Positions 10,031-54,740 of a stretch of DNA of 64,000 nt are shown here, piece after piece. The DNA is taken from positions 32,200,723 to 32,264,722 of the forward strand of contig CM075103.1 of assembly GCA_037576195.1 (NCBI GenBank), written 5' to 3'. A program made the position numbers and the translations under genes. The notes below the pieces were generated by a model, which did no database searches, had not been told where the DNA came from, and worked only from the letters and a program-made list of their open reading frames with translations. Each line of letters opens with the position of its first letter. Position 1 is the stretch's first letter. The stretch comes from Phytoseiulus persimilis (Eukaryota > Arthropoda > Arachnida > Mesostigmata > Phytoseiidae).

Positions 10031-10087
10031 ATATAACTTGAAAAGAAAGTGAGTGACGCCCAATCAAGGTTCAAAAGGTCAGCCGTC

Positions 10088-23161: not shown

Positions 23162-23417
23162 TGTCAGAGACGGAATTGGATATGTGGGAGCGGAATCAAC
23201 TATGGTGAACGCAGGGAGTGGATGGGAACGAAGGGGAAGGAGAAATGAGAGTGAACGTCCAAGGTAGAGAGGGAGGGAGTAGGTGTGAGAGAGAAGAGAG
23301 TGACAGAGGCGAAGCGCCGAGTGTGACTGGACAGAATAGCTGAGTAGAGAATAAATACTGTGGAGGTGTGAAGAGAGTGTGTGCGTACTAGATACTACCG
23401 GCCCTTGCAGGCTCACA
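23162..23417 (+). repeat. 5' LTR of gypsy-A
   Basis: TGTCAGAGAC...GGCTCACA, with AATAAA near 23351. It is followed by TTAGCAGCGGTGG, which resembles the gypsy-B primer site with TTA in place of TGG. Confidence 0.88.
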
Positions 23418-23506
23418 TTAGCAGCGGTGGTGAAAAAGAACAACGGTGTCAAAAGTACGGAGAGAAAGAAAAGAGAAGACCAATAGACTTGGAGCACGAA
23501 AACGAG

Positions 23507-25384: not shown

Positions 25385-27099
25385 GGATCTTGAATACACA
25401 TCGGGAAGTAATAGCCACATCAATGAAGGAATTAGGACGAACGACACCGACTGATTTCGATATTGAAGAAATTAAGGACAGCCGGCCAGTGAGGTGCAAA
25501 CCGTTTCGATTATCCGTGGTAGAAAAACAAGCACTGAGGGACATAGTCCAACAATTAGCCGATGCAGGCATGATTGAACGCTCGAGCTCCGAATACGCAA
25601 GCCCGGTGATGTTGGTGAAGAAAGCCGACGGTGGATGGAGAATGGTCATAGATTATAGAAAACTGAATGCGCAGACCGTCAAATTGAACTATCCTTTACC
25701 ACTGATTGACGAGATTCTGGATGGCGTCGGAGGGAAAAACATATACTCAACGTTCGATCTAGCTTGGGGGTACTTCCAAATACCAATGACAAAGAGGGCG
25801 GCGGAAAAGGCGGCATTTGTCACGAGCGAAGGACATTACGAACCGAGGGTTTTAATGATGGGACTATGTAACGCACCCGCAAAATTCCAAGAACTAATGG
25901 TACGAGTGAAGGAGATGGTGGGCAAACAACGGGCATTCCCGTTCCTCGACGATTTGATAACAGCATCGGACCGATTCGACGAACATCTACAGCAGATTGA
26001 GAAAATTCTAGAAGCATTGAGGGCCGCTGGACTTACTATACGACTTGCCAAATGCAAATTTTTCATGGAGACGGTAGAATTTTTGGGATTCAAGATATCG
26101 AAAGAAGGGGTCCGACCGGGAACAAGGAAGCTGGCAGCAGTGTCGGAGTTCGCAATACCGAAAGACGTGCATGAGGTTAGAAGATTTCTGGGATTAACAT
26201 CATTCTTCAGACGATTCGTCAGGAATTACGCGACAATATCGAATCCTCTAACGGAGCTGCTGAGAAAAGGGGCAGAAGTCAAGTGGACTGAGAAGTGTAA
26301 GGAAGCGTTCGAAAGATTGAAACAAGAGTTACTAAGAGACGCGGTGCTGGAGCGATATGAACCCGGGAGGAGGACAGAATTACATACGGACGCAAGCTGC
26401 GTAGGACTGGGGGCGAGACTGATGCAAGAAGTAGAAGGAAAGATGAAAATGGTCTATGCGATCAGTCGGAAACTTTCGGAGACAGAGAAGAATTATCACT
26501 CAACAAAATTGGAGCAGCTAGCCGTAGTATGGAGTATGGAACGGTTGAGGCATTATTTGTACGGGCAAGAATTAACAGTAGTTTCGGATTGTAGTGCGGT
26601 AGCAGCACTGAAAAAAGAGGGAGGTTCAACACAGATGAATCGGTGGCTCGATAGGATCGCGGAGTTCAACTTTTCGGTGAGACATAGAGCGGGAACAGCG
26701 ATGGGGCACGTTGACGCGCTGAGCAGAGAAGCACTCGAAGACGGGAGAGACTTAGAGGAGAGGGAGTCACCGGCAGAAACCGAGGCGAAAACGATATTCA
26801 CAGCATTGGCGACCTACGATGAGTTTCAAATGATCCAGGCAGCCGATCAAGACATCAAAGAGAGACTGGAAGCGTTCAAGAAAACCAAAAAGGAAAGAAC
26901 AAAGAGGGAAAATAATATCAGGCAGGGGTTTTGCGTGAGACATGGAATACTATACAAAGAACTTGAGGGGAAACGATTGTTCGTTGTACCGAAGGCCATG
27001 AGGAAATACATATTGGTGGTGGCGCACGACAAAGGGGGACATTTCGGAATCGACAAAACTTTGGAAATTATGAGGCAACATATTGGTTCCCAAACATGA
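25138..27099 (+). pseudogene. pol: Reverse transcriptase and RNase H of gypsy-A
   Basis: The recognisable protein starts around 25375 (RTELVRILNTHREV). RT motifs are intact: STFDLAWGYFQIPM, the active site FPFLDDLITAS, and GVRPGTRKLAAV. RNase H has ELHTDASCVGLGARL and HVDALSRE. The frame is -1 relative to gag, so expression would need frameshifting. The integrase zinc region starts in this frame (AHDKGGHFGIDKT) and is lost near 27075, where a one-base deletion shifts it to the next frame. Confidence 0.85.
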
Positions 27100-28478
27100 G
27101 GGAATATACAAAGTGGCATCTGAAGGCGTGCCCAGAGTGCATCTTCAGTAAGGATCTTTCGGGGAAGAAAGAGGGATTGTGTCATGCGATACGTCCGGTG
27201 CATCGACCCTTTGGGAAATGTTTCATAGATCACTTGGGACCGTTGCCGAAATCCCATGGTAAACAACACTTCATAGTATTGGTGGATGGTCAAACGAAAT
27301 TCGTGATATTGGAGGCGGTGCAGACAACCTCGGCCGAGGGCGTTATAAAATTCCTGGAAAGCGTGTTCATGAGATATGGTAGAATTGATCAATTAGTGTC
27401 AGACAGGGGGACCGCGTATACTCATAAGGATACAGAGGCGTTTCTAAAGAGGGAGCAGTGCAAGCACACGTTAATATCCCCGCAGAAACCGAGCTCGAAC
27501 GGGCAGGTAGAGCGTCTGAATAAAGAGGTAGCCAGGCTACTGAGGGCATTGTGTCAAACAGTGGATCATAGGGATTGGGTCAAGTACTTACCAATGGTAC
27601 AAATGACGCTGAACGGGGTGGTCTCAAGAAGCACGGGGAAGTCGCCATTCGAGGTTCTACATGGGTACCTACCTAGGATCAATAATCATGCGCAGTTAGT
27701 CGAGCAGGAGCAGGATCAGGATAAGGTGTGGAGACCCGCGGCGGAAATTCAAGCAGAAGTGAGGGAACAGTTGGTACACAGCCAAAATAAGTATGCATAT
27801 TACTATGATGCCAAGCGGAGACCGCAATACATCCGGTATTCAACGGGGGATGTAGTCGTAGTGAAGCGGTTGCCGGTACACACGGGCCAACCAACCAAAC
27901 TGCAGCCTAAGTTTAGGGGACCGATGGTTATTTCGGAAATACTGCCTAACGATAAGTACCGTCTTGTTCAAATCGGCCGAAAGAATTACACAGGTACAGC
28001 TCACTGTTCACAAATCGAATGGTACCGACTGCATGATGAGAATGAGGAAGAAATTGAACCCTATGAAGGAGATTCAATGGAGCCAGGGACAAGTCAGGAA
28101 GGAAAGCCCGAGATGCAACGAACGCGAGAAAACTCAGCGTCAAGGAGGGCGGCAGTGGAAGAAGTCATCGAGGAAATAGAAAGACCAGAAGATGTTATCG
28201 AATCAACGAGGGTTAAGGAGGACGAACATGAGGAACAGCCGATTGAAGGGGACCAAGCGGGAACGGAAGACGACCCCATAGAAGTAGATTCATCAGCGTC
28301 GTCGGAAGATATAGTGATAACGATTGACCCCAGAGGGCATAGGCTGTTAAGCGATAGACCGACTAGGGACTTAAATACGGCACGATTAGAGAATCCAGGT
28401 AGAGTAGGGGAGTATCAGAGCACAAGTAGGGTACAACCAAGTAGAAGATCTAGGTATCAAGGGAGGTATTCCAAATAG
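27096..28478 (+). pseudogene. Integrase of gypsy-A
   Basis: After the frameshift the frame carries the Cys pair ACPECIF, catalytic FIDHLGPL, VSDRGTAY and NGQVERLNKEVARL. Then comes a GPF/Y-type module (TGDVVVVKRLP to KFRGPMVISEIL) and an acidic tail. It is complete apart from the upstream shift. The closest relative in the window is the gypsy-C integrase (34998-36434 and 44049-45485). Confidence 0.85.
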
Positions 28479-28609
28479 AAGTTGGGGACAACTTCGGTTG
28501 TAGCGTGGACGAGAACGGAACAAGGTGGAATGTAAACAACAAAGAATGAGAATCGAGGCGAGAGGAGCGTCGAGAGCGGAGAAAGCGAGGCGAGGGAAGT
28601 GCAGAGGAA

Positions 28610-29218
28610 ATGCGAGGAAACGCAGAAGAGATTATTTTCGCTCGAGCCTCTGGAACGTGCGCACAACGACGACTACCAAACCTCGTGAATCACCAAGGAG
28701 GGATGGACTGCCAGGAACAACCCAACCAAGGAGGCAATGAGGGACTCGGAGAAATAGAAAGATTCATCCGATTCAAGAAGGAGACGGAGGGACGGGTGAG
28801 CCCGGATTTCATACAGTTTCAAAAGGAGGGAGAGGCAACGGCGGATGCCAACGCCGTGAAAAGGAAGACATTAGAGGTGGACATCGAGAGAGCGGTCGCA
28901 TTTGAGGTCGACGTATTTAGACAGCTCAGTTTGGAAGAAGCCCATCAGGAGCGGAAGCCGCTGAGGCAAGCCTGCGGGCGCTGCGATGACAACACCCACG
29001 ACGATGATAGTCCGAGATGCAAGGCCCGTTGGGTGGAGTGCCGCTTGTGTAAACAGGTGGGACACTACAGCAGGAGCACGTTGTGCCCGCGAAACCAAGA
29101 GAGAGTCTGCTACAACTGCAACTCGAAGGGACACAAAGCGCGTGATTGTCGAGAGCGTGTGTACGGTGGAGCGGAGAGGCGCCCCGGTGGCCACGTACAC
29201 GAAGCAGTTCGGGTTTGA
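28610..29218 (+). CDS. Third ORF of gypsy-A: zinc-knuckle protein
   Basis: The ATG at 28610 gives 202 residues. The N-terminal two thirds is charged and unrecognised. The C-terminal third has a first C-x2-C with a His and Cys (CGRCDDNTH...SPRC), then CRLCKQVGHYSRSTLC and CYNCNSKGHKARDC. It lies where env would be but has no signal peptide or membrane span, so it is not an envelope. Nucleic-acid binding is the likely role. The remnants at 12-401 and 36689-36943 share the finger pattern, so this is a lineage-specific third ORF. Known Ty3/gypsy elements of this kind usually stop at pol or carry env. Confidence 0.65.
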   Translation: MRGNAEEIIFARASGTCAQRRLPNLVNHQGGMDCQEQPNQGGNEGLGEIERFIRFKKETEGRVSPDFIQFQKEGEATADANAVKRKTLEVDIERAVAFEVDVFRQLSLEEAHQERKPLRQACGRCDDNTHDDDSPRCKARWVECRLCKQVGHYSRSTLCPRNQERVCYNCNSKGHKARDCRERVYGGAERRPGGHVHEAVRV

Positions 29219-31985: not shown

Positions 31986-34118
31986 TTAGCAACCTCCCGC
32001 TCTAACTCGTCTGGATTCAGCGAATGATTTTTTCTTTCTTTTTTTTGTGTGAAGTGCGTTCACGCACACCACCAGTGGAGCGTCCACGAGCGCTGAGAAT
32101 CTCGAAACAAGATCGGCCGGATTGTCCGCTGTTCTGACATATCTCCACTGCCGTGCTTCCGAACTGCTCTGGATCTTCCTTATGCGGTTCTCAACGAAGC
32201 TCTTCCACCGCTCCGGTCGATCTCTAATCCAGGCTAGGACACACGCATCGTCGCACCAAAAGTTCACCGACACAAAAGGAATGTTCACCACCTCGCCTAT
32301 TTTCTTCGCGATTCTAGTGGCAACAATGGCACCCAGCAGCTCCAGCCTGTGGATGGATCATTCCTCCTTCAACGGTGCTACTCTGCCCTTCGCCATTATG
32401 AAGGCCACCTTCACATTACCCGGTTCAGCGATATCCCTCGCATAGGCTTCACAACCATAACCCAGCAAACTGGCATCGCAAAACACGTGTAGTTCCTGCG
32501 CGCTGGCGCAACTCCGCCCGACCATCTTACGAAAATTGCGCTCGACGCTGACTTCTTTCACATGGCCTAGGCGACCCGTGGTTTCCAAGTATTCCACTTT
32601 ATCCGCCCCGTCCAGCGGTGCGTCCTAATCTAACTTTTTCTGCCAGTACTTCTGGAGTAGCCTCTTGAACCCTAGCATTATCGGCGCGACGAGACCAATC
32701 GGATCGAATCCTTGACTGGCACCCTTCAGCAAAGCTCTCTTTGACGGAGAATCAGCCTTGAAGAACTCGATCGTCTTCGTCGCGTCTATATGCAGCGAAT
32801 CCGCTTTTTGATTCCATCGGACGCCCAGAAACTTGAAGTTCTCATCTTGGAAAGTAACGGTCGCATCGAGATATCTTGTTGTGATAAATTTACCGAGTTC
32901 CGCCGAATTGGTTGACCACTTTTTAAGGGGAAAGCAGCCCGACATAAACGACTCATTTAGCACCTCGACCACTCTCTGCCCCTGTTCGACATTCTGAGCG
33001 CCTGCCAGCAAATCGTCAGCGTAGAAATAATTCTTGACGAATTCCAAGAATGCTCGATGTTCTGGTCTCCGCGCGATATCATGCTCTCGGTGCAACCTGA
33101 TTCCCGCGCAGTGCCGAAACGGCGTCGAGATCAGACCAAACGACAACCGACACGATCGCATTTCACGAAACTTGGCTCTTGGATTCTTGCTGTTTCCCAA
33201 CGGCCACAGAAATCTCAGAAACTTCCTATGCTCTGGCGTGATTTTGAATTGCAAATACGCCCTTTCTATGTCTGCCGTTATGACGATCGGCAACTGGCGA
33301 AACTGCAACACCACCGCAATCAACTCCCCTATGAGATTTTCCCCCTGGAACAACACATCATTCAGGCCTGCCGCATTTCGTGATCGCGCACTGGCGTCGT
33401 TCACGACCCTGACTTTCATCTTTGAAGTGGCTGTAGCCTGTTTCTTGATTACTGCTAGCAACGGGGAATAATGAGACTGTTCTCCCAGCTCCGGAGGATC
33501 TGTGAGTTCTATGAACTCCTGCTCCAGCAGGTCCTGCATCTCTGCATCCACTGCTTCGAGCAACTGTGGATTCTTTCTCGCTTGGGCGAGAAAGCTCCTC
33601 AGCCGTCGTTCCGTGAGATCCCGATGGTCTCCTAAGATTTGAATGTTTGGCTTAAACGGCAACTGAATGACGTATCGACCATCCGGGTCTCTCGTTGTCG
33701 TTGATTCGAAAAACCGCCTGATCTCCTCATCCAGTGCTTCGTCATTCTCTTTGAAGTATGGTTCGATACCCATGACTTCCGTGTGCCAGAGGAATGAGAT
33801 GTCCTCCGGTTCGTATTTCGCGCGTACCGCAACCGCCAACGAATTCTCTGTTTCCCTTTTTGGTTCTTTTCCACCCGACCAAGCATCCCTCTTTTGTCTA
33901 ATGACCGACAATAATTGCGAGTCTGCTCGAGTCTCTTGCTGTTGTCCCGTTCCACACTGGGAATACCCGAACAACGTCTCGAACGCTACGAGACCCCCGA
34001 CTTTCTTTATGGACTGCCCAACAATTGGGTACAAAAAATCCACCCCGATGAGGATGTTAATCTCACTCGCCCATTGTCCTTCATTTCTGTCGGATATTGG
34101 GCTCAAGCCCCTACACAC
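31986..34118 (-). pseudogene. pol: BEL-1 reverse transcriptase and RNase H
   Basis: A single frame carries the BEL RT (VVNDASARSRNAAGLNDVLF, ITADIERAYLQFKI, active site YFYADDLLAGA, KWSTNSAELGKF). It then carries RNase H (LHVFCDASLLGYGCEAYA and VNFWCDDACVLAWIRDRPERW, with NPADLVSRF). It is interrupted by two nonsense codons: TAG at 32625-32627, where BEL proteins usually have Trp before Asp-x-Pro-Leu, and a stop at 32358-32360. The frame is otherwise maintained over 2.1 kb, so the decay is recent. Confidence 0.85.
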
Positions 34119-34390
34119 CCTGCCTCCGGCAAACAGCCTTCTACCACATTTGGCAACGCAGTGGCGTGTATGACCAAATGCTTATTCGAGAACCGACTCT
34201 TCAACGTGATCTCGACAATTCTTCCCTTGCATATTTTCGGCGCTGCTTGGCCCGCCGCCTGTAGGAAGAATTTATCCGTGCCCACCGATTTCGCCTTAAT
34301 AGCGTCCGCGAACCGATTTGAGATGAGCGTCTTCTGCGACCCCGTTTCTAACACGATCCTACCAACCGCTTCACAGTGGTTGCTCACCAC
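34103..34390 (-). pseudogene. BEL-1 aspartic protease
   Basis: The active-site segment reads RIVLETGSQKTLIS. BEL proteases have Asp before the Ser/Thr-Gly-Ser-Gln, and here the catalytic Asp is Glu, which should abolish activity. It overlaps the RT frame by 16 bases. Confidence 0.7.
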
Positions 34391-34946
34391 CTTGCGTACC
34401 CCGTGGGAAGCCGTCTTTCCGATACATTCGTTATCCTGATGGAATTCACGCTAGCACTCCCCATCGTTTGAGCCACAACCGGTGCCGACGCCGCGACATC
34501 TGCGTTTGATTTAACGCACAGGAACTCTAGATGTCTCCCCTTACATCTCGCATAAGGCGTGGCCTTGCACTTGTCGACCCGGTGATTACGGTTCAGGCAT
34601 TTGTAGCAGGCATTCTTCGTCGTTGCACATTTCCTGCGCTCCTCCTGAGACCTCGGCTTCCTACACTTATTCCTAGGGTGCTGCTCGGAACAAAAAATGC
34701 ACGCCCGATCTGCGGATTGATTTGTGGCATGAACTGCCAATGAGTGTTGGCTGCTCACAGCCCCGGTTGCACCGGCAACACTGAACCTATTGTTTTCTGC
34801 TCGCCGGAAAGGGTTGTTGCCTGAGGCGCCGCCGAAACGATTCCCCTTCATATTCTTTGGAGGACCTGCCGCATCCGCTATGCCTCTCGACGATAGCTTC
34901 AGCCGTTCGACTTGTTTTTTCTCCTCGGACGAAAAAGCGACCAACG
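34384..34946 (-). pseudogene. BEL-1 Gag C-terminus with zinc knuckles
   Basis: The frame starts with the EEKKQVERLKLSSRGIA block shared with BEL-2. It has three BEL-type fingers: CIFCSEQHPRNKC, CYKCLNRNHRVDKC, and a third whose first Cys position is Tyr (YARCKGRHLEFLC). The 5' end is cut at 34946 by the junction with gypsy-C. Confidence 0.8.
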
Positions 34947-34997
34947 ATGATTTGTTTTGCATCAAGGACTCCTATACAAGGAAATTGAAGGCCGAAC

Positions 34998-36434
34998 GTG
35001 GTTCCGAAGATACTGAGAAAAAACATATTGGTGCTGAATCACGATAAAGCTGGACACTTCGGAATGGAAAAGACGATGGAGTTGCTCAAGAGGAGATATT
35101 GGTTCCCGAAAATGAAGACGAACACGAAGTTCCATTTGCGAGCGTGCTTGGATTCCATCTATAACAAGGAGAAAAGTGGCAAGGCAGAAGGCCCCACGAA
35201 CATCATTCGATCGGAGAGACGACCATTTGAGAAGGTTTTCATAGATCACCTTGGACCACTGATAGAATCAAATAAGAAGGAACATATCATAGCGTTGGTC
35301 GACGGATTCACGAAACTCGTTCTTCTTGGAGCAGTGTCTAGAACCAAGACAAAAGAAGTGATCAAGTTCTTGAAGGACTTCTTCACAATGTATGGCAAGC
35401 CAGCGAAAATCGTCTCAGACAGAGGATCGGCATTCACATCGAAGGATTTCGAGGAACTGCTGAAGGAAAATGGAATCCCTCACGTCGAAATTAGCACACT
35501 ATTCGCATGTGCGAACGGTCAGGTGGAGCGCCCGAACAAGCAGATAGCTAGGTTGTTGAGATCCTCGTGTGAAAAGGAGGATCACAGCGATTGGTCATAC
35601 AAGCTGAAGGACGTGCAGGTTTGGCTGAACACAACTATGTCTAGGAGCTTAGGGAAATCCCCATTCGAGGTGTTACATGGATATTTGTCGCGAATAAATA
35701 ATCATGAACAAGTGTTTGAGGGGGTTCAGGAAAAGGTTTGGACACCCGCGGAGGAAATTCAGAACGAAATTAGGGGAGTTCTCAGGAAGAGTCAGGAACG
35801 GTATAAGTACTATAATGACTTGCGGAAGAGAATACACGTTCGCTTCAACGTAGGGGATGTCGTTTTCGTGAAACGGTTGCCAGTGCCAACGGGTCAGCCA
35901 ACCGAACTTCAGCGAGAGTTCAGGGGTCCCATGACCATAACCAAAGTCCTAGCCAAGGATTCGTACGAATTGATGGAGCTCGGAGCGAATCAAAACTACG
36001 TTTGCACAGCTCATAGTTCACAGTTGAAGTGGTTCCAACCGAACAACGAGGAAGACATCGAGGGAGATGAGGGGGACACAGAAGAGGAGGCGCAGAAGGA
36101 TGTCAACACAGGAGTCTCCAACGATATCTTGGACGAGATCGACACGCAGCCCATGGATTGGTCTTCTGTCACGACACCAAGACCACCGATGCGATTCGAA
36201 GTAGGGTACCGAGACAGGTCACAATTGTCATCGGAAGGAGATTCATCAGCGAATTCAGTGGAAGTGGAAGTGGAAGCGGACATTCAGACAGCACAGCATG
36301 GAAAACCCAGGAGAACGGTAGATCTAAATTCAGCAATCATAGAGTCTCCTGGCGAGGATAGAGGAGAACCTCAACGTAGGCAGCAGCCTTCTAGGCAGGT
36401 CAAGTTCAGACCCGGGTTCAGATACTCTAAGTAG
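34998..36434 (+). pseudogene. gypsy-C integrase, copy 1
   Basis: The frame opens at GTG (VVPKILRKNIL), so it is a fragment of a larger pol. It has the zinc region HDKAGHFGMEKT, then HLRACLDS, where gypsy-A has ACPEC: the second zinc Cys is Ser in both copies. Catalytic residues lie in IDHLGPL, VSDRGSAF and NGQVERPNKQIARL. A GPF/Y-type module and an acidic tail ending FRPGFRYSK follow. A frameshift lies near 34990, before this frame. Confidence 0.85.
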
Positions 36435-36688
36435 TTCTGTTGAGGACAACAGCGTGGGTAGGTGTGGCGAGCGATTAGGTATGAAGTAAACAATGCTGGA
36501 AAATCAGCTGGAAGAACAGCGGCAAGATTCGAATCAGGATGGAAATCGAGGCGCGAGAGGGGCGCGCAAGAAGATGAAGACCGTGACGTAAGAGGGCGCA
36601 GCGATCTATCTCGAGCTTCATCTCGGAAGAGCAACGGTCTTTCCTGTTTCGAACTTTGTCGGAGACACGCGCATCCGCATTCCGCGAC

Positions 36689-37342
36689 ATGAAATTCTGC
36701 GGAGCCTGCGTCGACAATAGGCATCAGGCAGGTTTCTCGGCCCGCGCGGCCCTGAGGCAACATGCATCTTGTGCCGAAGAGTGGGCCATTTCGGAAGATT
36801 ATGCCCGGAGCGACCTCTAGTGGGAAGCTCCAGGGCTGTGCAACAAGTGGAACCACGAGGTGAAGCCTCTGCGACGGCGAGGGAGCAGGAAGAGGATCCT
36901 GTTCGCACCACGGAGAAGAAACGAGGCACCGGAGGAACAAGCGTGAGAGCAGGCGGAGTTGACGGCGACAACGGAGGCGATCGATGATCTCTCTAGAAGG
37001 TTGGTGGAGATCCTGACGTGTTCGATCTGCCTCGAGGTGGCTGGACCCCCTGTGCAGCAATGCATCAACGGTCACGGGGTCTGCTCGCAGTGTCGGGCTC
37101 GGTTAGACAGGTGCGCACAGTGTCGGACGCCGTTGGAAGAGGGATTCCAGAGAAAACGCGCAGTCGAGGCGCTGGCCACGGGGATGACCTTTCCCTGCCG
37201 ACATAAGGAGTTTGGGTGCGTAGAGCGGCCCGAGTGGCAGCAGAAGGCCTCGCACGAGCGGGAGTGCCGGACGAGAGGGACGGAGTGCCAAAAAGAGAAG
37301 ATTCCAGCGTGGGCATTCTGCAGCATACAAGGTCGGATCTGA
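36689..37342 (+). pseudogene. gypsy-C third ORF, 5' part: zinc knuckle then SIAH-like RING and zinc finger, copy 1
   Basis: From ATG 36689 the frame reads CGACVDNRHQAG, matching the first finger of the gypsy-A third ORF. The knuckle CILCRRVGHFGRLC follows in a second frame. After a stop at 36944-36946 the first frame reopens with a C3HC4 RING (CSICLEVAGPPVQQC, NGHGVC, SQC, CAQC). A SIAH-type finger then follows (FPCRHKEFGCVER, SHERECRTRGTEC). The spacing and the FPC...GC...HE..C pattern are those of SINA/SIAH E3 ubiquitin ligases. No ATG precedes the RING in its frame. The frame changes mean either decay or splicing. Copy 2 has the same arrangement. Confidence 0.65.
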
Positions 37343-38237
37343 CAAAGGCGCAAGTGTCACATTTGAAACGGAAAGATTCGTGTAACTCGTAGTTGGGGTA
37401 TCGGAGGTGGGTAGAGTCGAGAGGAGTTGAGATTTGGGTTTCGGTGAGGGAAAGGAAGAAAGTGCGTTCGGTCTCAAGGTGTTAGTAGACTGAGGAAAGG
37501 TTGGAATGAAGGCCTCTGCTGTTGCAAAAGTGGATGGAGAGATTGCAACGTGGGGAGTTATTGGAGGCCGCGGAGGATGGGGTTCTTGGAGATGTGCTTT
37601 GGGTCATGGTAAGTTTAGAGTTGAGGAGGCAGAATGGAAGGGAAAATCATTCGCTGAAGGAACTCAACCGGGGACAACGCGGGAGACGTCCCCAGACCGC
37701 AGGTGGCGGTGCCTCGGCAGTACCCCCGAATCGACCCCCGAATAATCCTGCTCGATTCCCCTCCAGTCACGGGCTGGCAGAACAAGATCATCAGGATTAT
37801 GCACCACATGATGTGGCAGCCTCCCTATGCATCGGGTTCGGGCCACTGTACTGTATGGCGGTCAGTCCGCGAACGCTGTTTCACTGCTGTACCCTTTCCA
37901 CTGCAGGGGTCATAGGGGGCTCACGCATTGGGCCGGTCGAGTCCTCCCGCCATATGATAAGAAGAGTGAACATATGAGTAGGGGAGAAATGTGAGAAAGA
38001 GGGGAGAACGGGAAAGAGAAAGAAGGAAGCTTTCTAGTAGAGCGCGATAGGAAAGATAACCGGGTACCCTAGCCTGGTGACCGAACATGGCAGTGCCACT
38101 TTAGGTCATCAATAACATAGGGCGGTGGTTTCGCACCGGGCGACTGAGAATGTCTACCACCTTAAATAGAGGAGTGTCGTTGCCGAGGACCCAGCACGGA
38201 AGTCGGAGCTCACGCCGAAGGACGACACGGGCGCATC
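37343..38237 (+). other. Interval between SIAH-like RING and C-terminal parts
   Basis: After the RING frame ends, another frame briefly continues with SDLTKAQVSHLKRK, resembling the end of the SIAH finger region. Most of the rest has no recognisable domain. A strong donor (CATG|GTAAGT at 37609) and acceptor (CCTTTCCACTGCAG, ending 37906) would define a 298-bp intron. Confidence 0.35.
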
Positions 38238-38626
38238 ATGATTCGGGCGGATGCGCAGACGGAGTTCCGCATGCGTAGGATGAGCCGGCTAAACTACGAG
38301 GTCAGATGGATCTGGACCGAGCACGAGGAGTGGGTGGTGCTCAGACTCATGGTGGAGGCTGCGTGCGACCTTGTTGGTTCGAATTGGTTCTCAGCCAGAT
38401 GGTGCTGGGAACGGAGGAGCGAGCGTCAGCATTTCGAGGGCGCATTTCGGTCATGACGGCCCAAACGCAATTTATTTGGGAAGGGACGCCGTTGAGTTCC
38501 GATGTCGAGATCCGGGAAGCGGTTCAAGCCGGGTGCGGCTTCTACATCGACGGGCGAGGGATGATACGGCTCGACAATCCGCATCGCGGCGTCAATCGAA
38601 AGGATTCATCAATAAAAATATTGTGA
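38238..38626 (+). pseudogene. gypsy-C third ORF, 3' part: SIAH substrate-binding-domain-like, copy 1
   Basis: The useful frame (about 38372-38626, same frame as the RING) reads LSQMVLGTEERASAFRGRIS, then FIWEGTPLSSDVEIREAV, a Cys and SSIKI. SIAH substrate-binding domains have the same succession: a GT...A..F..R segment, WE-x-TP-x-S, and an Ile-rich last strand. The frame ends at 38626, where SIAH proteins also end. It lies downstream of the RING and SIAH finger, in the order of a SIAH protein. The identification is by eye and of moderate strength. Confidence 0.5.
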
Positions 38627-38758
38627 TAGATTAGTGTACGCTCGCGCACACCTGGAGTCATTATTCAGATAGGTAATTTATACTAGGGTTAGCTAGGATC
38701 GGAGAGATCCAGGTGAGCATATGCCAGGAGGCATAATGACTAGGGTAGCATGGTCATA

Positions 38759-39013
38759 TGTAACAGCCAGTTGGATTCTAAAGGAGAGCTAACTAGAATG
38801 TTCTCTGGGGATGCATGTCAGAAGCAGCAATGGCACCCGCGGCCGCGGACCGCGGTCTTCGGGTTCCCGTCTGTTGGGGAACCTGGCAACTGACTGCTTG
38901 TTCTCCGTATTGTGGACCACTGGCCCCTTGTCTAGCAGCTTTGCCTCTAGCAGCCTCCACAAGATGTGGAGCGACACCTGACTCGCAGGGCTAGGAAAGA
39001 TGTATTGGAACGG
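38759..39013 (+). repeat. TGTAACAGCC LTR-like sequence after gypsy-C, copy 2
   Basis: It starts after GTAGCATGGTCATA, which parallels the GTAGCGTGGTCGAA before the gypsy-A LTR, so it is probably the start of the gypsy-C 3' LTR. The first 73 bp match 1115-1187. The right end is undefined and runs into BEL-2. Confidence 0.5.
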
Positions 39014-40257
39014 TTGGCGCCGCCGAAACGATTCCCCTTCATATTCTTTGGAGGACCTGCCGGATCCGCTATGCCTCTCGACGATAGCTTCAGCCGTTCG
39101 ACTTGTTTTCTCTCCTCGGTCGAAAAAGAGACCAACGCCTCCAGCCTCGACTCACTTTCCACCTCTGGCTGAGCTCTGTATGCCCTGTCAAAATCTCTCC
39201 GCAAATCATACGTTAACGACTGCATTATCAACGTCGAAGCAAAGGCTGACATACCCTCGTAGCTGTTTCTCAACAGAACTAACGAATCGATGTTCTGTGC
39301 AAGATCTTCGACGAAGTCCACGAATTTGCGGTTTGCCACCGCCTCCCGCCTGAAGCTCCAGCCAGACCGGCTTATCACCGTGTTGACGTGCTGCTCCTCG
39401 GCCAGGACTATGTCGTCGAATCTGTCGTAGAGCGAATTTCTTGCGTCTTCGTAATTTTCAGCCGTGATGTCCCGACCTCCGAGGCATCTCGCTGCTCTAC
39501 CCGACAACGTCTTCAGCATGAGCTCGAATTTTTCCAGCGGATCCAGTGCCGATGAGTCCACTTGCAGCACGAATGCGTTCTTCCATCTTCGGAACCTCGT
39601 GGGATCGCCATCAAATCTCGGTATCCGCTCCAGAATATCCTTCCATGAGCTCCTTGGGCCCGGTGCCCTGTGTTCAAACGTGGAGTGGAAGCGTGTGTCT
39701 CTTCCCATGACGCTGTCGTGCTGGATCGAACCAGATTCTCGCCGGGACCCCGCGTTGTCGGAAGTCCCTGGCTCTAAGCTCCGGATGAATGCCCCGATCT
39801 CGAACTTCGCATCGGCGATCTTCAGCTCATAATCCATCGCTTCCGCAGCTTCCGCTTCCTGCACCTCATCCGAAAACAGCCTCGAGTCCACAACTCGCTG
39901 CGTCGCTCTGGCCAGCCGCTTTTCTTGTTCATCCAGAAAATTGGCTGCCTCCTTGGCATTTGCCCCTGCTTTCTCACAGGATCCCTGTTCAATCACGTTT
40001 TTGGTTCGCGTGATCGACCGGGTGACGAGGGCTCTGGCCAACGAGAGTTCCCGCTTCGGGCCTTCCAGATTTCCGCCCCGAATCTCTCGTCCCGACTGCT
40101 CGACATCCACTTTGTCGTCGATTGGCATCCTGCCACGATATTTCTTCGAACGTAAGTCGGAAATCTTTCCTCCGTGCGTGACCTTGTCTGACCTTGCTCG
40201 AGCGCTGGCTCTTCCGTGGATTTTTTTCTTAAACTTCTGACACCACTTGTCACGCAC
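39014..40257 (-). pseudogene. gag: BEL-2 Gag
   Basis: The open frame starts at GTG just after the LTR. The first ATG is 40128 (MPIDDKVDV). It has a charged coiled-coil-like N-terminus, then the BEL Gag core (RIPRFDGDPTRFRRWKNAF, EKFELMLKTLSGRAARCL) and ERKQVERLKLSSRGIADP. It is cut at about 39014. The last 120 bp before the cut overlap the homologous part of BEL-1 (34830-34946) but differ from it, so the two pieces come from different BEL copies. Confidence 0.8.
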
Positions 40258-40400
40258 TCGACAGAGTGATTATTGTTTATTGATAATACCGAATGAAGTG
40301 CATCCTCGACTGAACGCGTCGTGCTGCTTCTCCCGTGCGGTGGGCCCACCGCGCCTGCGCCGACCCTCCCCCGATTCCGGATAGATTCCCGCTAATTAGG
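40248..40400 (-). repeat. BEL-2 5' LTR, partial
   Basis: On the minus strand it contains ATTATCAATAAACAATAATC (a polyadenylation signal) and ends CGAGTGCGTGACA, followed by AGTGGTGTCAGAAG as a likely primer site. A related LTR lies at 60040-60257. The upstream edge is uncertain. Confidence 0.6.
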
Positions 40401-43497: not shown

Positions 43498-44001
43498 ATG
43501 CAGGAAGCCGAAGGGAAGTGGAGAATGGTCTACGCAATAAGCAGGAAGCTTTCGGACACGGAGCGAAATTATCATTCGACGAAGTTGGAACAACTTTCAG
43601 TAGTCTGGGCAATGGAGATGTTCCGGTATTACTTGCTGGGGATCCCGTTCGTTGTGGTGAGCGACTGTGTAGCGGTCTCAGCCCTGAAAGCAAAAGGAGG
43701 ATCCGCACAACTGAACCGTTCGCTCAGCCGAATCGCGGAGTTCACGTTCGAAGTCAAACTTCGACCAGGGACAGGCATGGCGCACGTAGATGCTTTGTCA
43801 CGAGAACCGCATGAAGAGGCTCAAGAAACGGGAGACGTAGACTTACCAACAGACGTAGCAACGGTGAACATGGTACAAGCCGAAGAAGATCAGTTCAGAG
43901 CGGTGCAAGCAACGGATAAGGACATCCAGAGAAGGATGAAGATTTTGGCAAAAGAGGAGCAAGACAGAACAAGTCAAGAAAGAGCGTTCATTGGAGGATG
44001 A
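43498..44001 (+). pseudogene. gypsy-C RNase H, copy 2 only
   Basis: The frame has WRMVYAISRKLSDTERNYHS, VVVSDCVAVSALKAKGG and MAHVDALSRE, the second half of a gypsy RNase H. The RT is missing upstream. It ends at TGA 43999-44001, and the integrase continues in other frames. The nearest relative is gypsy-A (about 26400-26760). Confidence 0.8.
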
Positions 44002-44048
44002 TTTGTTTTGCATCAAGGACTTCTATACAAAGAAATTGAAGGCCGAAC

Positions 44049-45485
44049 GTGGTTCCGAAGATACTGAGAAAAAACATATTGGTGCTGAATCACGATAAAG
44101 CTGGACACTTTGGAATGGAAAAGACGATGGAGTTGCCCAAGAGGAGATATTGGTTCCCGAAAATGGAGACGAACACGAAGTTCCATTTGCGAGCGTGCTT
44201 GGATTCCATCTATAACAAGGAGAAGAGTGGCAAGGCAGAAGGCCCCACGAACATCATTCGATCGGAGGGACGACCATTTGAGAAGGTTTTCATAGATCAC
44301 CTTGGACCACTGATAGAATCAAATAAGAAGGAACATATCATAGCGTTGGTCGACGGATTCACGAAACTCGTTCTTCTTGGAGCAGTGTCGAGAACCAAGA
44401 CAAAAGAAGTGATCAAGTTCTTGAAGGACTTCTTCACAATGTATGGCAAGCCAGCGAAAATCGTCTCAGACAGAGGATCGGCATTCACATCGAAGGATTT
44501 CGAGGAACTGCTGAAGGAAAATGGAATCCCTCACGTCGAAATTAGCACACTATTCGCATTTGCGAACGGTCAGGTGGAGCGCCCGAACAAGGAGATAGCT
44601 AGGTTGTTGAGATCCTTGTGTGAAAAGGAGGATCACAGCGATTGGTCATACAAGCTGAAGGACGTGCAGGTTTGGCTGAACACAACTATGTCTAGGAGCT
44701 CAGGGAGATCCCCATTCGAGGTGTTACATGGATATTTGTCGCGAATAAATAATCATGAACAAGTGTTTGAGGGGGTTCAGGAAAAGGTTTGGACACCCGC
44801 GGAGGAAATTCAGAACGAAATTAGGGGAGTTCTCAGGAAGAGTCAGGAACGGTATAAGTACTATAATGACTTGCGGAAGAGAATACACGTTCGCTTCAAC
44901 GTAGGGGATGTCGTTTTCGTGAAACGGTTGCCAGTGCCAACGGGTCAGCCAACCGAACTTCAGCGAGAGTTCAGGGGTCCCATGACCATAACCAAAGTCC
45001 TAGCCAAGGATTCGTACGAATTGATGGAGCTCGGAGCGAATCAAAACTACGTTTGCACAGCTCATAGTTCACAGTTGAAGTGGTTCCAACCGAACAACGA
45101 GGAAGACATCGAGGGAGATGAGGGGGACACAGAAGAGGAGGCGCAGAAGGATGTCAACACAGGAGTCTCCAACGATATCTTGGACGAGATCGACACGCAG
45201 CCCATGGATTGGTCTTCTGTCACGACACCAAGACCACCGATGCGATTCGAAGGAGGGTACCGAGACAGGTCACAATTGTCATCGGAAGGAGATTCATCAG
45301 CGAATTCAGTGGAAGTGGAAGTGGAAGCGGACATTCAGACAGCACAGCATGGAAAACCCAGGAGAACGGTAGATCTAAATTCAGCAATCATAGAGTCTCC
45401 TGGCGAGGATAGAGGAGAACCTCAACGTAGGCAGCAGCCTTCTAGGCAGGTCAAGTTCAGACCCGGGTTCAGATACTCTGAGTAG
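44049..45485 (+). pseudogene. gypsy-C integrase, copy 2
   Basis: It has the same 478-codon frame as copy 1, with ten amino-acid differences that I can count. The Cys to Ser change in the zinc region and the frameshift upstream are shared. The catalytic E context is NGQVERPNKEIARL. Confidence 0.85.
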
Positions 45486-45739
45486 TTCTGTTGAGGACAA
45501 AAGCGTGGGTAGGTGTGGCGAGCGATTAGGTATGAAGTAAACAATGCTGGAAAATCAGCTGGAAGAACAGCGGCAAGATTCGAATCAGGATGGAAATCGA
45601 GGCGCGAGAGGGGCGCGCAAGAAGATGGAGACCGTGACGTAAGAGGGCGCAGCGATCTATCTCGAGCTTCATCTCGGAAGAGCAACGGTCTTTCCTGTTT
45701 CGAACTTTGTCGGAGACACGCGCATCCGCATTCCGCGAC

Positions 45740-46393
45740 ATGAAATTCTGCGAAGCCTGCGTCGACAATAGGCATCAGACAGGTTTCTCGGCCCGCGCGG
45801 CCCTCAGGCAACATGCATCTTGTGCCGAAGAGTGGGCCATTTCGGAAGATTATGCCCGGAGCGACCTCTAGTGGGAAGCTCCAGGGCTGTGCAACAAGTG
45901 GAACCACGAGGTGAAGCCTCTGCGACGGCGAGGGAGCAGGAAGAGGATCCTGTTCTCACCACGGAGAAGAAACGAGGCACCGGAGGAACAAGCGTGAGAG
46001 CAGGCGGAGTTGACGGCGACAACGGAGGCGATCGATGATCTCTCTAGAAGGTTGGTGGAGATCCTGACGTGTTCGATCTGCCTCGAGGTGGCTGGACCGC
46101 CTGTGCAGCAATGCATCAACGGTCACGGGGTCTGCTCGCAGTGTCGGGCTCGGTTAGACAGGTGCGCACAGTGTCGGACGCCGTTGGAAGAGGGATTCCG
46201 GAGAAAACGCGCAGTCGAGGCGCTGGCCACGGGGATGACCTTTCCCTGCCGACATAAGGAGTTTGGGTGCGTAGAGCGGCCCGAGTGGCAGCAGAAGGCC
46301 TCGCACGAGCGGGAGTGCCGGACGAGAGGGACGGAGTGCCAAAAAGAGAAGATTCCAGCGTGGGCATTCTGCAGCATACAAGGTCGGATCTGA
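45740..46393 (+). pseudogene. gypsy-C third ORF, 5' part: zinc knuckle and SIAH-like RING, copy 2
   Basis: It has the same layout as 36689-37342, with the same frame changes. All RING and SIAH-finger Cys and His are kept. One visible change in the RING region is EGFRRK for EGFQRK. Confidence 0.65.
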
Positions 46394-47288
46394 CAAAGGC
46401 GCAAGTGTCACATTTGAAACGGAAAGATTCGTGTAACTCGTAGTTGGGGTATCGGAGGTGGGTAGAGTCGAGAGGAGTTGAGATTTGGGTTTCGGTGAGG
46501 AAAAGGAAGAAAGTGCGTTTGGTCTCAAGGTGTTAGTAGACTGAGGAAAGGTTGGAATGAAGGCCTCTGCTGTTGCAAAAGTGGATGGAGAGATTGCAAC
46601 GTGGGGAGTTATTGGAGGCCGCGGAGGATGGGGTTCTTGGAGATGTGCTTTGGGTCATGGTAAGTTTAGAGTTGAGGAGGCAGAATGGAAGGGAAAATCA
46701 TTCGCTGAAGGAACTCAACCGGGGACAACGCGAGAGACGTCCCCAGACCGCAGGTGGCGGTGCCTCGGCAGTACCCCCGAATCGACCCCCGAATAATCCT
46801 GCTCGATTCCCCTCCAGTCACGGGCTGGCAGAACAAGATCATCAGGATTATGCACCACATGATGTGGCAGCCTCCCTATGCATCGGGTTCGGGCCACTGT
46901 ACTGTATGGCGGTCAGTCCGCGAACGCTGTTTCACTGCTGTACCCTTTCCACTGCAGGGGTCATAGGGGGCTCACGCATTGGGCCGGTCGAGTCCTCCCG
47001 CCATATGATAAGAAGAGTGAACATATGAGTAGGGGAGAAATGTGAGAATGAGGGGAGAACGGGAAAGAGAAAGAAGGAAGCTTTCTAGTAGAGCGCGATA
47101 GGAAAGATAACCGGGTACCCTAGCCTGGTGACCGAACATGGCAGTGCCACTTTAGGTCATCAATAACATAGGGCGGTGGTTTCGCACCGGGCGACTGAGA
47201 ATGTCTACCGCCTTAAAAAGAGGAGTGTCGTTGCCGAGGACCCAGCACGGAAGTCGGAGCTCACGCCGAAGGACGACACGGGCGCATC

Positions 47289-47677
47289 ATGATTCGGGCG
47301 GATGCGCAGACGGAGTTCCGCATGCGTAGGATGAGCCGGCTAAACTACGAGGTCAGATGGATCTGGACCGAGCACGAGGAGTGGGTGGTGCTCAGACTCA
47401 TGGTGGAGGCTGCGTGCGACCTTGTTGGTTCGAATTGGTTCTCAGCCAGATGGTGCTGGGAACGGAGGAGCGAGCGTCAGCATTTCGAGGGCGCATTTCG
47501 GTCATGACGGCCCAAACGCAATTTATTTGGGAAGGGACGCCGTTGAGTTCCGATGTCGAGATCCGGGAAGCGGTTCAAGCCGGGTGCGGCTTCTACATCG
47601 ACGGGCGAGGGATGATACGGCTCGACAATCCGCATCGCGGCGTCAATCGAAAGGATTCATCAATAAAAATATTGTGA
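47289..47677 (+). pseudogene. gypsy-C third ORF, 3' part: SIAH substrate-binding-domain-like, copy 2
   Basis: The encoded frames are identical to those of 38238-38626. Confidence 0.5.
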
Positions 47678-47800
47678 TAGATTAGTGTACGCTCGCGCAC
47701 ACCTGGAGTCATTATTCAGATAGGTAACTTATACTAGGGTTAGCTAGGATCGGAGAGTTCCAGGTGAGCATATGCCAGGAGGCATAATGACTAGGGTAGC

Positions 47801-50800
47801 TTCCCTCCAGAGTTGGGAAGTAATGCTCAGATTGGTCTCGGAATCACCCCTCCAGAGTTGGGAAGTAATGCTCAGATTGGTCTTGGAATCACCCCTCCAG
47901 AGTTGAGAAGTAATGCTCAGATTGGTCTTGGAATCACCCCTCCAGAGTTGAGAAGTAATGCTCAGATTGGTCTCGGAATCACCCCTCCAGAGTTGGAAAG
48001 TAATGCTCAGATTGGTCTCGGAATCACCCCTCCAGAGTTGGAAAGTAATGCTCAGATTGGTCTCGGAATCACCCCTCCAGAGTTGGGAAGTAATGCTCAG
48101 ATTGGCCCCGGAATCATCCCTCCAGAGCTGGGAAGTAATGCTCAGATTGGCCCCGGAATCACTCCTCCAGAGTTGGGAAGTAATGCTCAGATTGGTCTCG
48201 GAATCACTCCTCCAGAGTTGGAAAGTGATGCTCAGATTGGCCCCGGAATCACCCCTCCAGAGTTGGGAAGTAATGCTCAGATTGGTCTCGGAATCACCCC
48301 TCCAGAGTTGGGAAGTGATGCTCAGATTGTTCTCGGAATCACCCCTCCAGAGTTGAGAAGTAATGCTCAGATTGGTCTCGGAATCACTCCTCCAGAGTTG
48401 GAAAGTGATGCTCAGATTGGCCCCGGAATCACCCCTCCAGAGTTGGGAAGTAATGCTCAGATTGGTCTCGGAATCACCCCTCCAGAGTTGGGAAGTGATG
48501 CTCAGATTGTTCTCGGAATCACCCCTCCAGAGTTGAGAAGTAATGCTCAGATTGGTCTCGGAATCACCCCTCCAGAGTTGGGAAGTAATGCTCAGATTGG
48601 TCTCGGAATCACCCCTCCAGAGTTGGGAAGTAATGCTCAGATTGGTCTTGGAATCACCCCTCCAGAGTTGAGAAGTAATGCTCAGATTGGTCTTGGAATC
48701 ACCCCTCCAGTGTTGGGAAGTAATGCTCAGATTGACCCCGGAATCACCCCTCCAGAGTTGGGAAGTAATGCTCAGATTGGTCTCGGAATCACCCCTCCAG
48801 AGTTGGGAAGTGATGCTCAGATTGTTCTCGGAATCACCCCTCCAGAGTTGAGAAGTAATGCTCAGATTGGTCTCGGAATCACCCCTCCAGAGTTGGAAAG
48901 TAATGCTCAGATTGGTCTCGGAATCACCCCTCCAGAGTTGGAAAGTAATGCTCAGATTGGTCTCGGAATCACCCCTCCAGAGTTGGGAAGTAATGCTCAG
49001 ATTGGCCCCGGAATCATCCCTCCAGAGTTGGGAAGTAATGCTCAGATTGGTCTCGGAATCACCCCTCCAGAGTTGGGAAGTAATGCTCAGATTGGCCCCG
49101 GAATCATCCCTCCAGAGTTGGGAAGTAATGCTCAGATTGGCCCCGGAATCACTCCTCCAGAGTTGGGAAGTAATGCTCAGATTGGTCTCGGAATCACTCC
49201 TCCAGAGTTGGAAAGTAATGCTCAGATTGGCCCCGGAATCATCCCCTTCAGAGTTGGGAAGTAATGCTCAGATTGGTCTCGGAATCACCCCTCCAGAGTT
49301 GAGAAGTAATGCTCAGATTGGTCTCGGAATCACCTCTCCAGAGTTGGGAAGTAATGCTCAGATTGGTCTCGGAATCACCCCTCCAGAGTTGAGAAGTAAT
49401 GCTCAGATTGGTCTCGGAATCACCCCTCCAGAGTTGAGAAGTAATGCTCAGATTGGTCTCGGAATCACCCCTCCAGAGTTGGAAAGTAATGCTCAGATTG
49501 GTCTCGGAATCACCCCTCCAGAGTTGGGAAGTGATGCTCAGATTGGTCTCGGAATCACCCCCTCCAGAGTTGGGAAGTAATGCTCAGATTGTTCTCGGAA
49601 TCACCCCTCCAGAGTTGAGAAGTAATGCTCAGATTGGTCTCGGAATCACCCCTCCAGAGTTGAGAAGTAATGCTCAGATTGGTCTCGGAATCACCCCTCC
49701 AGAGTTGGGAAGTAATGCTCAGATTGGTCTCGGAATCACCCCTCCAGAGTTGAGAAGTAATGCTCAGATTGACCCCGGAATCACCCCTCCAGAGTTGGGA
49801 AGTAATGCTCAGATTGGTCTCGGAATCACCCCTCCAGAGTTGGGAAGTGATGCTCAGATTGGTCTCGGAATCACCCCCTCCAGAGTTGGGAAGTAATGCT
49901 CAGATTGTTCTCGGAATCACCCCTCCAGAGTTGAGAATTAATGCTCAGATTGTTCTCGGAATCACCCCTCCAGAGTTGAGAAGTAATGCTCAGATTGACC
50001 CCGGAATCACCCCTCCAGAGTTGGGAAGTAATGCTCAGATTGGTCTCGGAATCACCCCTCCAGAGTTGGAAAGTAATGCTCAGATTGGTCTCGGAATCAC
50101 CCCTCCAGTGTTGGGAAGTAATGCTCAGATTGACCCCGGAATCACCCCTCCAGAGTTGGGAAGTAATGCTCAGATTGGTCTCGGAATCACCCCTCCAGAG
50201 TTGAGAAGTAATGCTCAGATTGGTCTCGGAATCACCTCTCCAGAGTTGGGAAGTAATGCTCAGATTGGTCTCGGAATCACCTCTCCAGAGTTGAGAAGTA
50301 ATGCTCAGATTGGTCTCGGAATCACCCCTCCAGAGTTGAGAAGTAATGCTCAGATTGGTCTCGGAATCACCCCTCCAGAGTTGGAAAGTAATGCTCAGAT
50401 TGGTCTCGGAATCACCCCTCCAGTGTCGGGAAGTAATGCTCAGATTGACCCCGGAATCACCCCTCCAGAGTTGGGAAGTAATGCTCAGATTGGTCTCGGA
50501 ATCACCCCTCCAGAGTTGGACAGTAATGCTCAGATTGGTCTCGGAATCACCCCTCCAGAGTTGGAAAGTAATGCTCAGATTGGTCTCGGAATCACCCCTC
50601 CAGAGTTGGAAAGTAATGCTCAGATTGGTCTCGGAATCACCCCTCCAGAGTTGGAAAGTAATGCTCAGATTGACCCCGGAATCACCCCTCCAGAGTTGGG
50701 AAGTAATGCTCAGATTGGCCCCGGAATCATCCCTCCAGAGTTGGAAAGTAATGCTCAGATTGGTCTCGGAATCACCCCTCCAGAGTTGAGAAGTAATGCT

Positions 50801-53800: not shown

Positions 53801-54740
53801 CCCCCCAGAGTTGGAAAGTAATGGCCAGATTGGTCCCGGAATCACCCCCCAGAGTTGGAAAGTAATGGCCAGATTGGTCTCAGAATCACCCCCCCAGAGT
53901 TGGAAAGTAATGCCCAGATTGGTCTCGGAATCACCCCTCCAGAGTTGGAAAGTAATGGCCAGATTGGTCTATGAATCACCCCCCAGAGTTGGAAAGTAAT
54001 GGCCAGATTGGTCTCGGGATCACCCCTCCAGAGTTGGAAAGTTATGGCCAGATTGGTCTCGGAATCACCCCTCCAGAGTTGGAAAGTGATGGCCAGATTG
54101 GTCTCAGGATCACCCCTCCAGAGTTGGAAAGTAATGGCCAGATTGGTCCCGGAATCACCCCCCAGAGTTGGAAAGTAATGCTCAGATTGGTCTCGGAATC
54201 ACCCCCCCAGAGTTGGGAAGTAATGGCCAGATTGGTCTCAGAATCACCCCTCCAGGGTTGGAAAGTAATGGCCAGATTGGTCCCGGAATCACCCCCCAGA
54301 GTTGGAAAGTAATGCTCAGATTGGTCTCGGAATGACCCCCCAGAGTTGGAAAGTAGTGGCCAGATTGGTCCCGGAATCACCCCCCCATAGTTGGAAAGTA
54401 ATGGCCAGATTGGTCCCGGAATCACCCCCCAGAGTTGGAGAGTAATGGCCAGATTGGTCTCAGAATCACCCCTCCAGAGTTGGAAAGTAATGGCCAGATT
54501 GGTCTCGGAATCACCCCTCCAGAGTTGGAAAGTTATGCTCAGATTGGTCTCGGAATCACCCCCCAGAGTTGGAAAGCAATGCTCAGATTGGTCTCGGAAT
54601 CACCCCCCCAGAGTTGGAAAGTAATGGCCAGATTGGTCCCGGAATCACCCCCCAGAGTTGGAAAGTAATGCTCAGATTGGTCTCGGAATGACCCCCCAGA
54701 GTTGGAAAGTAATGCTCAGATTGGTCTCGGAATCACCCCT
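47801..54740 (+). repeat. 45-bp minisatellite array, two subfamilies around an assembly gap
   Basis: The unit is 45 bp (TCCAGAGTTGGGAAGTAATG, then CTCAGATTGG, TCTCGGAATC, ACCCC). About 88 units lie left of the gap, mostly with AATGCTCAG. About 55 lie right of it, mostly with AATGGCCAG. Since 45 is divisible by three, several frames stay open for hundreds of codons in 15-residue periods, without any start context or domain. Two C18-like runs (52341-52358 and 53071-53087) occur in equivalent variant units. Confidence 0.97.
51765..52260. other. Assembly gap of 496 N
   Basis: The run of N lies inside the minisatellite, exactly between its two subfamilies. The true length is unknown. Confidence 0.99.

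Follow-up and report, generated by a model that had tools for sequence, protein, structure and literature searches.

A SIAH-type ubiquitin ligase sequence in the third open reading frame of Ty3/gypsy elements of the mite Phytoseiulus persimilis

Errantiviruses, like other gypsy and BEL elements bearing env, carry a third open reading frame (ORF) between the integrase and the 3' long terminal repeat (LTR). Many viruses also carry or hijack ubiquitin ligases (E3) against the defences of their hosts. We found a sequence related to one family of these ligases in the third ORF (ORF3) of gypsy-C, a family of Ty3/gypsy elements of the mite Phytoseiulus persimilis, of which two copies lie in a stretch of 64,000 nucleotides (GCA_037576195.1, contig CM075103.1, positions 32,200,723 to 32,264,722 of the forward strand; hereafter 'the window', meaning this whole stretch). 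The SINA/SIAH ligases (SIAH1/2 and sina of Drosophila) have a RING, a SIAH-type zinc finger, and a TRAF-like domain in the same order as ORF3. ORF3 differs from them in being encoded by an LTR retrotransposon, in its N-terminal zinc knuckles and acidic linker, in its low identity (28-30%), and apparently in several positions of the peptide groove. With errantiviruses it shares the position of the third ORF. We considered and rejected the reading of this frame as an envelope gene, because its Pfam hits include no envelope family and it has no clear membrane segment, the top 19-residue hydropathy (1.62) being located on the RING.

The nearest precedent we found for LTR retrotransposons with such domains is Burro, a group of giant Gypsy-like elements of planarians. 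They are reported to have AIR1 (a RING Zn-finger), MATH_TRAF_C, and BIR, and the authors suggest that they meddle with host apoptosis and ubiquitination (PMC6431247). Burro and gypsy-C are thus both gypsy-like elements with ubiquitination-related domains. However, the domains of Burro are reported as parts of one giant polyprotein, in elements of very large size, with MATH_TRAF_C in an upstream accessory ORF of one species (PMC6431247), whereas gypsy-C has a compact and separate ORF3 after the integrase, the complete SIAH order, elements of ~6.6-7.1 kb, and related ORFs beside BEL/Pao integrases. Another link between gypsy elements and SIAH is PEG10, a domesticated Ty3/gypsy-derived gene whose product is reported to bind host SIAH1 (PMC7212762, PMC3406341). 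There, a gypsy Gag-type protein is linked to SIAH and the ligase is that of the host, whereas gypsy-C would encode its own.

That an accessory ORF can contain domains taken from the host is already known. For a SIAH ligase that occupies the env slot of gypsy elements and has relatives next to BEL/Pao integrases, the searchable literature offered no earlier case: titles and beginnings of abstracts revealed no SIAH-bearing retrotransposon, in a search that reached few subscription papers and no bioRxiv preprints. Protein searches with the ORF3 of one copy, L015 (2630 candidates, shared 5-residue words required, none at E <= 0.001), and with an alignment of six ORF3s (the 8000 candidates with most shared words scored, no match) also reached no close relative; both missed even host SIAH proteins, although the database has animal and mite SIAH, and speak to close relatives only.

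ORF3 in the gypsy-C family

With positions 36689-38626 as the query, we searched the assembly from which the window comes (127 contigs, 181 Mb in total) and retrieved 20 genomic places. At least 12 gypsy-C copies have SIAH sequence: nine lacking the insert described below (L009-L017), the two of the window, and one diverged copy (L018). The first-pass annotation of the window had proposed a SIAH-type ligase in the env position of a gypsy element and advised looking for a copy with an unbroken frame. Such a copy exists: the ORF3 of L015 is a single open frame of 397 codons located 3' of the integrase, with zinc knuckles, a RING, immediately behind it a SIAH-type double zinc finger, and a TRAF-like domain (Pfam: Sina_RING 8.2e-12, Sina_ZnF 1.2e-13, Sina_TRAF 7.3e-5; the knuckle match is below the cut-off). 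All eight RING ligands and the ligands of the SIAH finger are intact in alignments read by eye. Among PDB sequences, it matches the RING/finger of SIAH1 (9g0l, 1.2e-18), and its residues 204-370 match the finger and substrate-binding domain of SIAH1 (4c9z, 3.8e-12). It is colinear with residues 2-247 of the host sina protein (28% identity over 251 positions, 7e-33). The host gene is at C3:1397898-1399474; among the 120 matches listed of 1117, its joined exons are closest by identity to a SIAH1-like protein of Varroa jacobsoni (87%) and then to Siah1 of Ixodes scapularis (85%), the best E-value being that of a Drosophila protein (67%).

Other copies are complete to varying degrees. The ORF3 of L012 (317 codons) retains the RING, the finger, and the TRAF-like part, and that of L016, in which a stop falls at codon 350 in the numbering of L015, retains the RING and the finger. 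The RING is whole or mostly present in L009, L010, L012, L015, L016, and L017, half present in L011, and lost in L013 and L014. A motif scan outside the window found 11 knuckle starts of gypsy-C, and in 10 of these a methionine immediately precedes the first knuckle (L009, L010, L015, L016, L019-L022, and twice in L025; L027 has GTG); L030 and L031, which are second views of L015 and L016, are left out of the count.

We then computed ratios of nonsynonymous to synonymous substitution (dN/dS), with ranges from a codon bootstrap, for nine copies aligned to the reading frame of L015; pairs of copies are not independent, and this layout hides frameshifts. From the finger to the end (codons 190-397), dN/dS is 0.175 (0.110-0.269; mean dN 0.026, dS 0.152; 9 copies, 36 pairs), and the same codons read in the two shifted frames give 1.00 and 2.34. 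The ratios are similarly low for the RING (0.166, 0.061-0.327; 6 copies, 15 pairs), the finger (0.204, 0.089-0.445), the TRAF part (0.147, 0.084-0.255), and the knuckles (0.125, 0.039-0.341; 4 copies). Three of the nine copies (L009, L010, L016) have in-frame stops. Since dN/dS is low in frame and not in the shifted frames, the substitution pattern leads us to conclude that the ORF3 protein was maintained during the spread of the gypsy-C family.

The family has the features of an LTR element. Its 290-bp LTR (TGTAACAG...CTGTTACA) has short terminal inverted repeats, and five copies are flanked by 4-bp target-site duplications (TSDs): L011 (GAGG), L014 (AAGG), L012 (TATC), L015 (CATG), and L016 (CGTC). 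The LTR pairs differ at 1/237 positions in L015 (part of the LTR), 4/290 in L012, 5/290 in L011, and 5/300 in L014, so these insertions are, judged by their LTRs, recent on the time scale of the family. The pair of L016 is 98.1% identical over 103 bp. L013, for which we found no 5' LTR, has knuckle and protease (PR), then reverse transcriptase (RT) and RNase H, then integrase (IN) in three pieces; Pfam gave no Retrotrans_gag match in its knuckle and PR piece. This domain was found in frames of L014 (2.4e-9) and L021 (2.2e-8). The gypsy-C RT is 64.6% identical to that of gypsy-A, another element of the window. In summary, the position after the integrase, the LTRs and TSDs of the family, and the purifying selection bear out the proposal of a SIAH-type sequence in the env position of gypsy. 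As a side observation, L014:4902-5927 (+) has a gag domain in one open frame with the SIAH finger and the TRAF-like part, in a 1.9-kb LTR-bounded derivative.

Window copies and RING-less copies

Both copies in the window are decayed and 5'-truncated (Table 1). Their pol is reduced to the integrase, which in the first copy is the last open pol frame before ORF3 (254 nt from its stop to ORF3), and this copy retains of its LTRs just the beginning of a 3' LTR. Its first knuckle has an Arg as fourth ligand, and a CCHC knuckle, CILCRRVGHFGRLC, lies at 36763-36804 in a different frame from that of the first. The Pfam profiles recovered the RING, the SIAH finger, and the substrate-binding stretch in the SINA/SIAH order that had been annotated here. 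The matches of the first two (ORF 36947-37339, +) are above the Pfam cut-offs and that of Sina_TRAF (ORF 38279-38623, +) is below; the C-terminal part, for which the first-pass annotation had asked for a profile search, is thus weak in the window and clear in less decayed copies.

Table 1. Coordinates of gypsy-C features in the window (positions within the 64,000 nucleotides) and of the elements compared with them.
Feature	Position	Strand	Evidence
gypsy-C integrase (H2C2 zinc finger and rve core), 5'-truncated end of pol	34989..36431	+	Pfam Integrase_H2C2 1.1e-13, rve 4.6e-14
ORF3 start: ATG 36689 and zinc-knuckle module	36689..36804	+	Met and knuckle context also in other copies
SINA/SIAH-type C3HC4 RING	37019..37123	+	Sina_RING 4.1e-11, residues 25-59 of ORF 36947-37339; same place in a second search
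SIAH-type zinc finger, first part, interrupted by insert	37172..37289	+	Sina_ZnF 5.2e-8; break at 37289/37290
Dispersed-repeat insert (~870 bp) in ORF3, foreign to the ligase gene	37290..38167	+	~10 nt at the same point in other gypsy-C copies
Remnant of TRAF-like (SIAH substrate-binding) C-terminal domain	38381..38578	+	Sina_TRAF 0.0012 (38402-38545); 88% identity to L015 ORF3 residues 317-382
3' LTR start (TGTAACAG...), first window copy	38759..38832	+	74 bp, 87.8% to the 290-bp LTR
Second gypsy-C copy, 5' truncation and insert (46341-47218) as in the first; RING 46070-46174	43997..47800	+	99.2% over 3804 bp
gypsy-A third ORF (comparison element): CCHC knuckles	28550..29218	+	Pfam zf-CCHC families only
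RING-less gypsy-C subfamily	L019 C1:50795288, L020 C4:23283226, L021 C1:8773748, L022 C1:2986131, L023 C3:16725043		Knuckles and part of SIAH tail

The frames had been described as broken or spliced alike in both copies. The broken pattern is indeed the same in 34946-38749 and 43997-47800 (identity in Table 1), and we rejected splicing as its reason, since an insert of ~870 bp, together with decay, explains the split. In other genomic copies, positions 1-601 and 1480-1938 of the query are only ~10 nt apart, and relatives of the intervening sequence (query 602-1431 and 603-1453) occur at C1:372491 and C3:20563019 with no ORF3 flanks. From these copies, 37290-38167 is best described as a foreign dispersed repeat within ORF3. 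Because the insert and the start point near the N-terminus of the integrase are identical in both, we take the pair as a single truncated copy that was probably duplicated later, rather than as two insertions. The RING of the second copy is at C3:32246792-32246896 in contig coordinates. This copy passes at 47803 into a satellite (47803-54740) of ~154 copies of a 45-bp unit. Arrays with a spacing of 45 nt are also present in the stretches around L020, L022, and L023, and 15-residue repeats that match, by eye, the reverse complement of the unit adjoin L044 and L050.

RING-less relatives with clean flanks had been named in advance as a sign of a one-off host-gene insertion. We found five such copies (L019-L023), in which ~36941 is joined to ~38410 at a single common junction; the frames of L019 (194 codons) and L022 (216 codons) are open. 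On their face they match that description. However, the ~70 residues at the C-terminus of ORF3, where the TRAF-like part ends, survive in part or in full in every one of them. With this remainder of the SIAH tail, the five copies resemble products of a deletion rather than the state before an insertion. The common junction suggests one deletion that was afterwards multiplied.

These copies bear on the possibility that ORF3 acts as a decoy and not as an enzyme, binding host SIAH or its substrates and dominantly blocking host ubiquitination. SIAH dimerises via its substrate-binding domain, and derivatives with knuckles and part of the SIAH tail have been amplified, some with open frames; L013 and L014 have the finger and the TRAF-like part without the RING, and the RING of the BEL-type ORF3 described below is degenerate. 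On the other hand, the RING of gypsy-C is as constrained as the remainder of the protein, its zinc ligands are intact in L015, and the RING-less copies retain no more than ~70 residues of the tail. We regard a decoy as unlikely, if the most plausible of the alternatives.

Related ORFs in other element families

Searched against the genome, the ORF3 protein of L015 gives at least 79 matches (E <= 0.001), including the gypsy-C copies and places with the knuckle only. Some belong to a second gypsy family (L041-L046), mostly broken, whose knuckles precede a SINA RING; part of these copies also have the finger. The longer of these matches are 27-39% identical to L015. In L042, the knuckle and a Sina_RING match (1e-10) lie behind a gypsy integrase (rve 6.8e-7) whose pieces are 50-57% identical to those of gypsy-C. 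In L041, the RING (8.2e-12) and the finger (6.9e-11) are in different frames.

Other matches lie beside integrases of another type. The ORF3 of L047 is 32% identical to that of L015 and is located behind an integrase end with DUF5641 (1.5e-10); L049 also adjoins this domain (2e-6), which we take as a mark of BEL/Pao elements. Pfam finds in L047 a Sina_ZnF above the cut-off (4.3e-10) and a degenerate RING (Sina_RING 6.5e-4) below it; two knuckle motifs can be seen by eye, with a Pfam match below the cut-off (0.0018). The frame ends earlier than the related frames of L049 and L050. The L047 protein matches ten distinct places that are not gypsy. In nine of them, the DUF5641-type integrase end is on the same strand and either immediately precedes the match or overlaps it; in L050, the remaining one, satellite takes this place. 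Of the ten, six extend into the RING or the finger, and five of these six have the integrase. No LTR pair was found for L047, and no pol frame of at least 120 codons with RT was seen upstream of L048.

Over 40 aa, the knuckle module of L015 shares 47.5% identity with that of L047 (4e-9); the two have residues between the cysteines in common, and each is shortly preceded by Met. The fused knuckle and the same position argue for a single ORF3 lineage, possibly shared by both superfamilies. The knuckles are the common denominator of these proteins, and in gypsy-A and its like they are all there is of ORF3, with no RING or SIAH match to the third ORF of gypsy-A in Pfam. It could therefore be argued that ORF3 is mainly an RNA-binding, nucleocapsid-like protein in which the SIAH part is a dimerisation scaffold with no ligase function. 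The intact RING and finger ligands of L015 and the purifying selection on both parts speak against it, and we give this scaffold somewhat less credence than the decoy.

The distribution also bears on a further alternative, in which host sina was inserted or retrocopied once into a dead gypsy element and had no function for it. In its favour, the relationship of the SIAH part to sina is clear and the window copies are decayed. Yet the family has at least 12 copies with SIAH sequence, five of them with clean LTR/TSD ends, such ORFs are also present in the second gypsy family and next to BEL integrases, the identity to host sina is just 28%, and dN/dS is low. The presence in multiple copies and multiple families refutes this scenario, to which we attach almost no probability.

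Further retroelement sequences are present in the window. An open frame of 1430 codons at 10037-14329 (+), with RT, RNase H, and integrase, belongs to a different lineage of Ty3/gypsy (RT pieces ~28-30% identical to gypsy-C). Frames with DUF1759 and Peptidase_A17, presumably parts of BEL/Pao elements, lie around the gypsy-C copies at 38947-40269 (-) and 32625-34181 (-). Near the left edge, ~231-400 (+) has another array of knuckles (CAQC.., CDRKGHLSRLC, CFWCGGRGH).

What the ORF3 protein may do

As the best explanation of the whole, we propose, with a probability of about 0.72, that the ORF3 of gypsy-C is a RNA-binding E3 ligase of the SIAH type, encoded by the element in the env position and acting for its benefit. 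The protein would be translated from its own start, the conserved Met just before the first knuckle, ~250-260 nt past the stop of pol, and its mRNA would probably be subgenomic or spliced. The knuckles would tether it to the RNA or the particles of the element, the RING would bring in a host ubiquitin-conjugating enzyme (E2), and the TRAF-like domain would select the target. The latter would most likely be a factor with which the host restricts or silences the element, or else the particle proteins of the element itself, ubiquitinated to its benefit. Since an interaction with host SIAH1 is reported for PEG10, the search for this target might sensibly begin with Gag or with the SIAH pathway itself. 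PxAxVxP is the degron motif of SIAH, and we rejected such a degron within the element's own proteins as the target signal when none turned up in seven pieces of gypsy-C (PR, RT, and IN pieces, the gag frame of L014, and ORF3).

Several observations weigh against this proposal. The Pfam match to Sina_TRAF is marginal in gypsy-C (19.5-25.4 bits by ORF, for a cut-off of 24.8): seven of eight SIAH-bearing ORFs match and one is above the cut-off, whereas in a six-frame search 6/7 gypsy-C places are above. Among the BEL and second-gypsy ORFs scanned, including the C-terminal pieces of L049 and L050, Pfam recognised no TRAF-like domain, and the RING of the BEL-type ORF3 is under the cut-off. In the ORF3 alignments some positions of the SIAH1 peptide groove appear to be kept and several to be changed, and the scanned pieces have no PxAxVxP degron. 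The amplification of the RING-less copies shows that an element can do without the RING in cis, at least when it is accompanied by other copies. The ORF3s of gypsy-A (element 23372-28478) and of a related copy on contig C119 carry knuckles alone (by eye in the latter). Most of the 148 BEL integrase matches have no adjoining ORF3 match, which places the SIAH-type ORF in what appears to be a minority BEL lineage. Finally, the SIAH part of the gypsy ORFs is about as distant from that of the BEL ORFs as either is from SIAH1 or host sina, and this part of the protein would therefore fit one capture as well as several.

The SIAH part would ultimately derive from a host sina gene, and recombination between gypsy and BEL/Pao elements seems a more likely origin of the knuckle-SIAH unit in both than its assembly twice. 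Going further, one might tentatively see here a portable gene for a knuckle-plus-SIAH ligase, borne by the elements in the env slot, that spread in mites across two superfamilies, Ty3/gypsy and BEL/Pao, and is dedicated to counter-defence or particle handling; we hold this broader view at somewhat less than even odds. If true, these findings would point to an accessory gene that is exchanged as a module between superfamilies of retroelements, and would provide a direct route to asking whether genomic parasites turn ubiquitin on host silencing. The sequences described here suggest that such elements may manipulate the protein-disposal machinery of their host.

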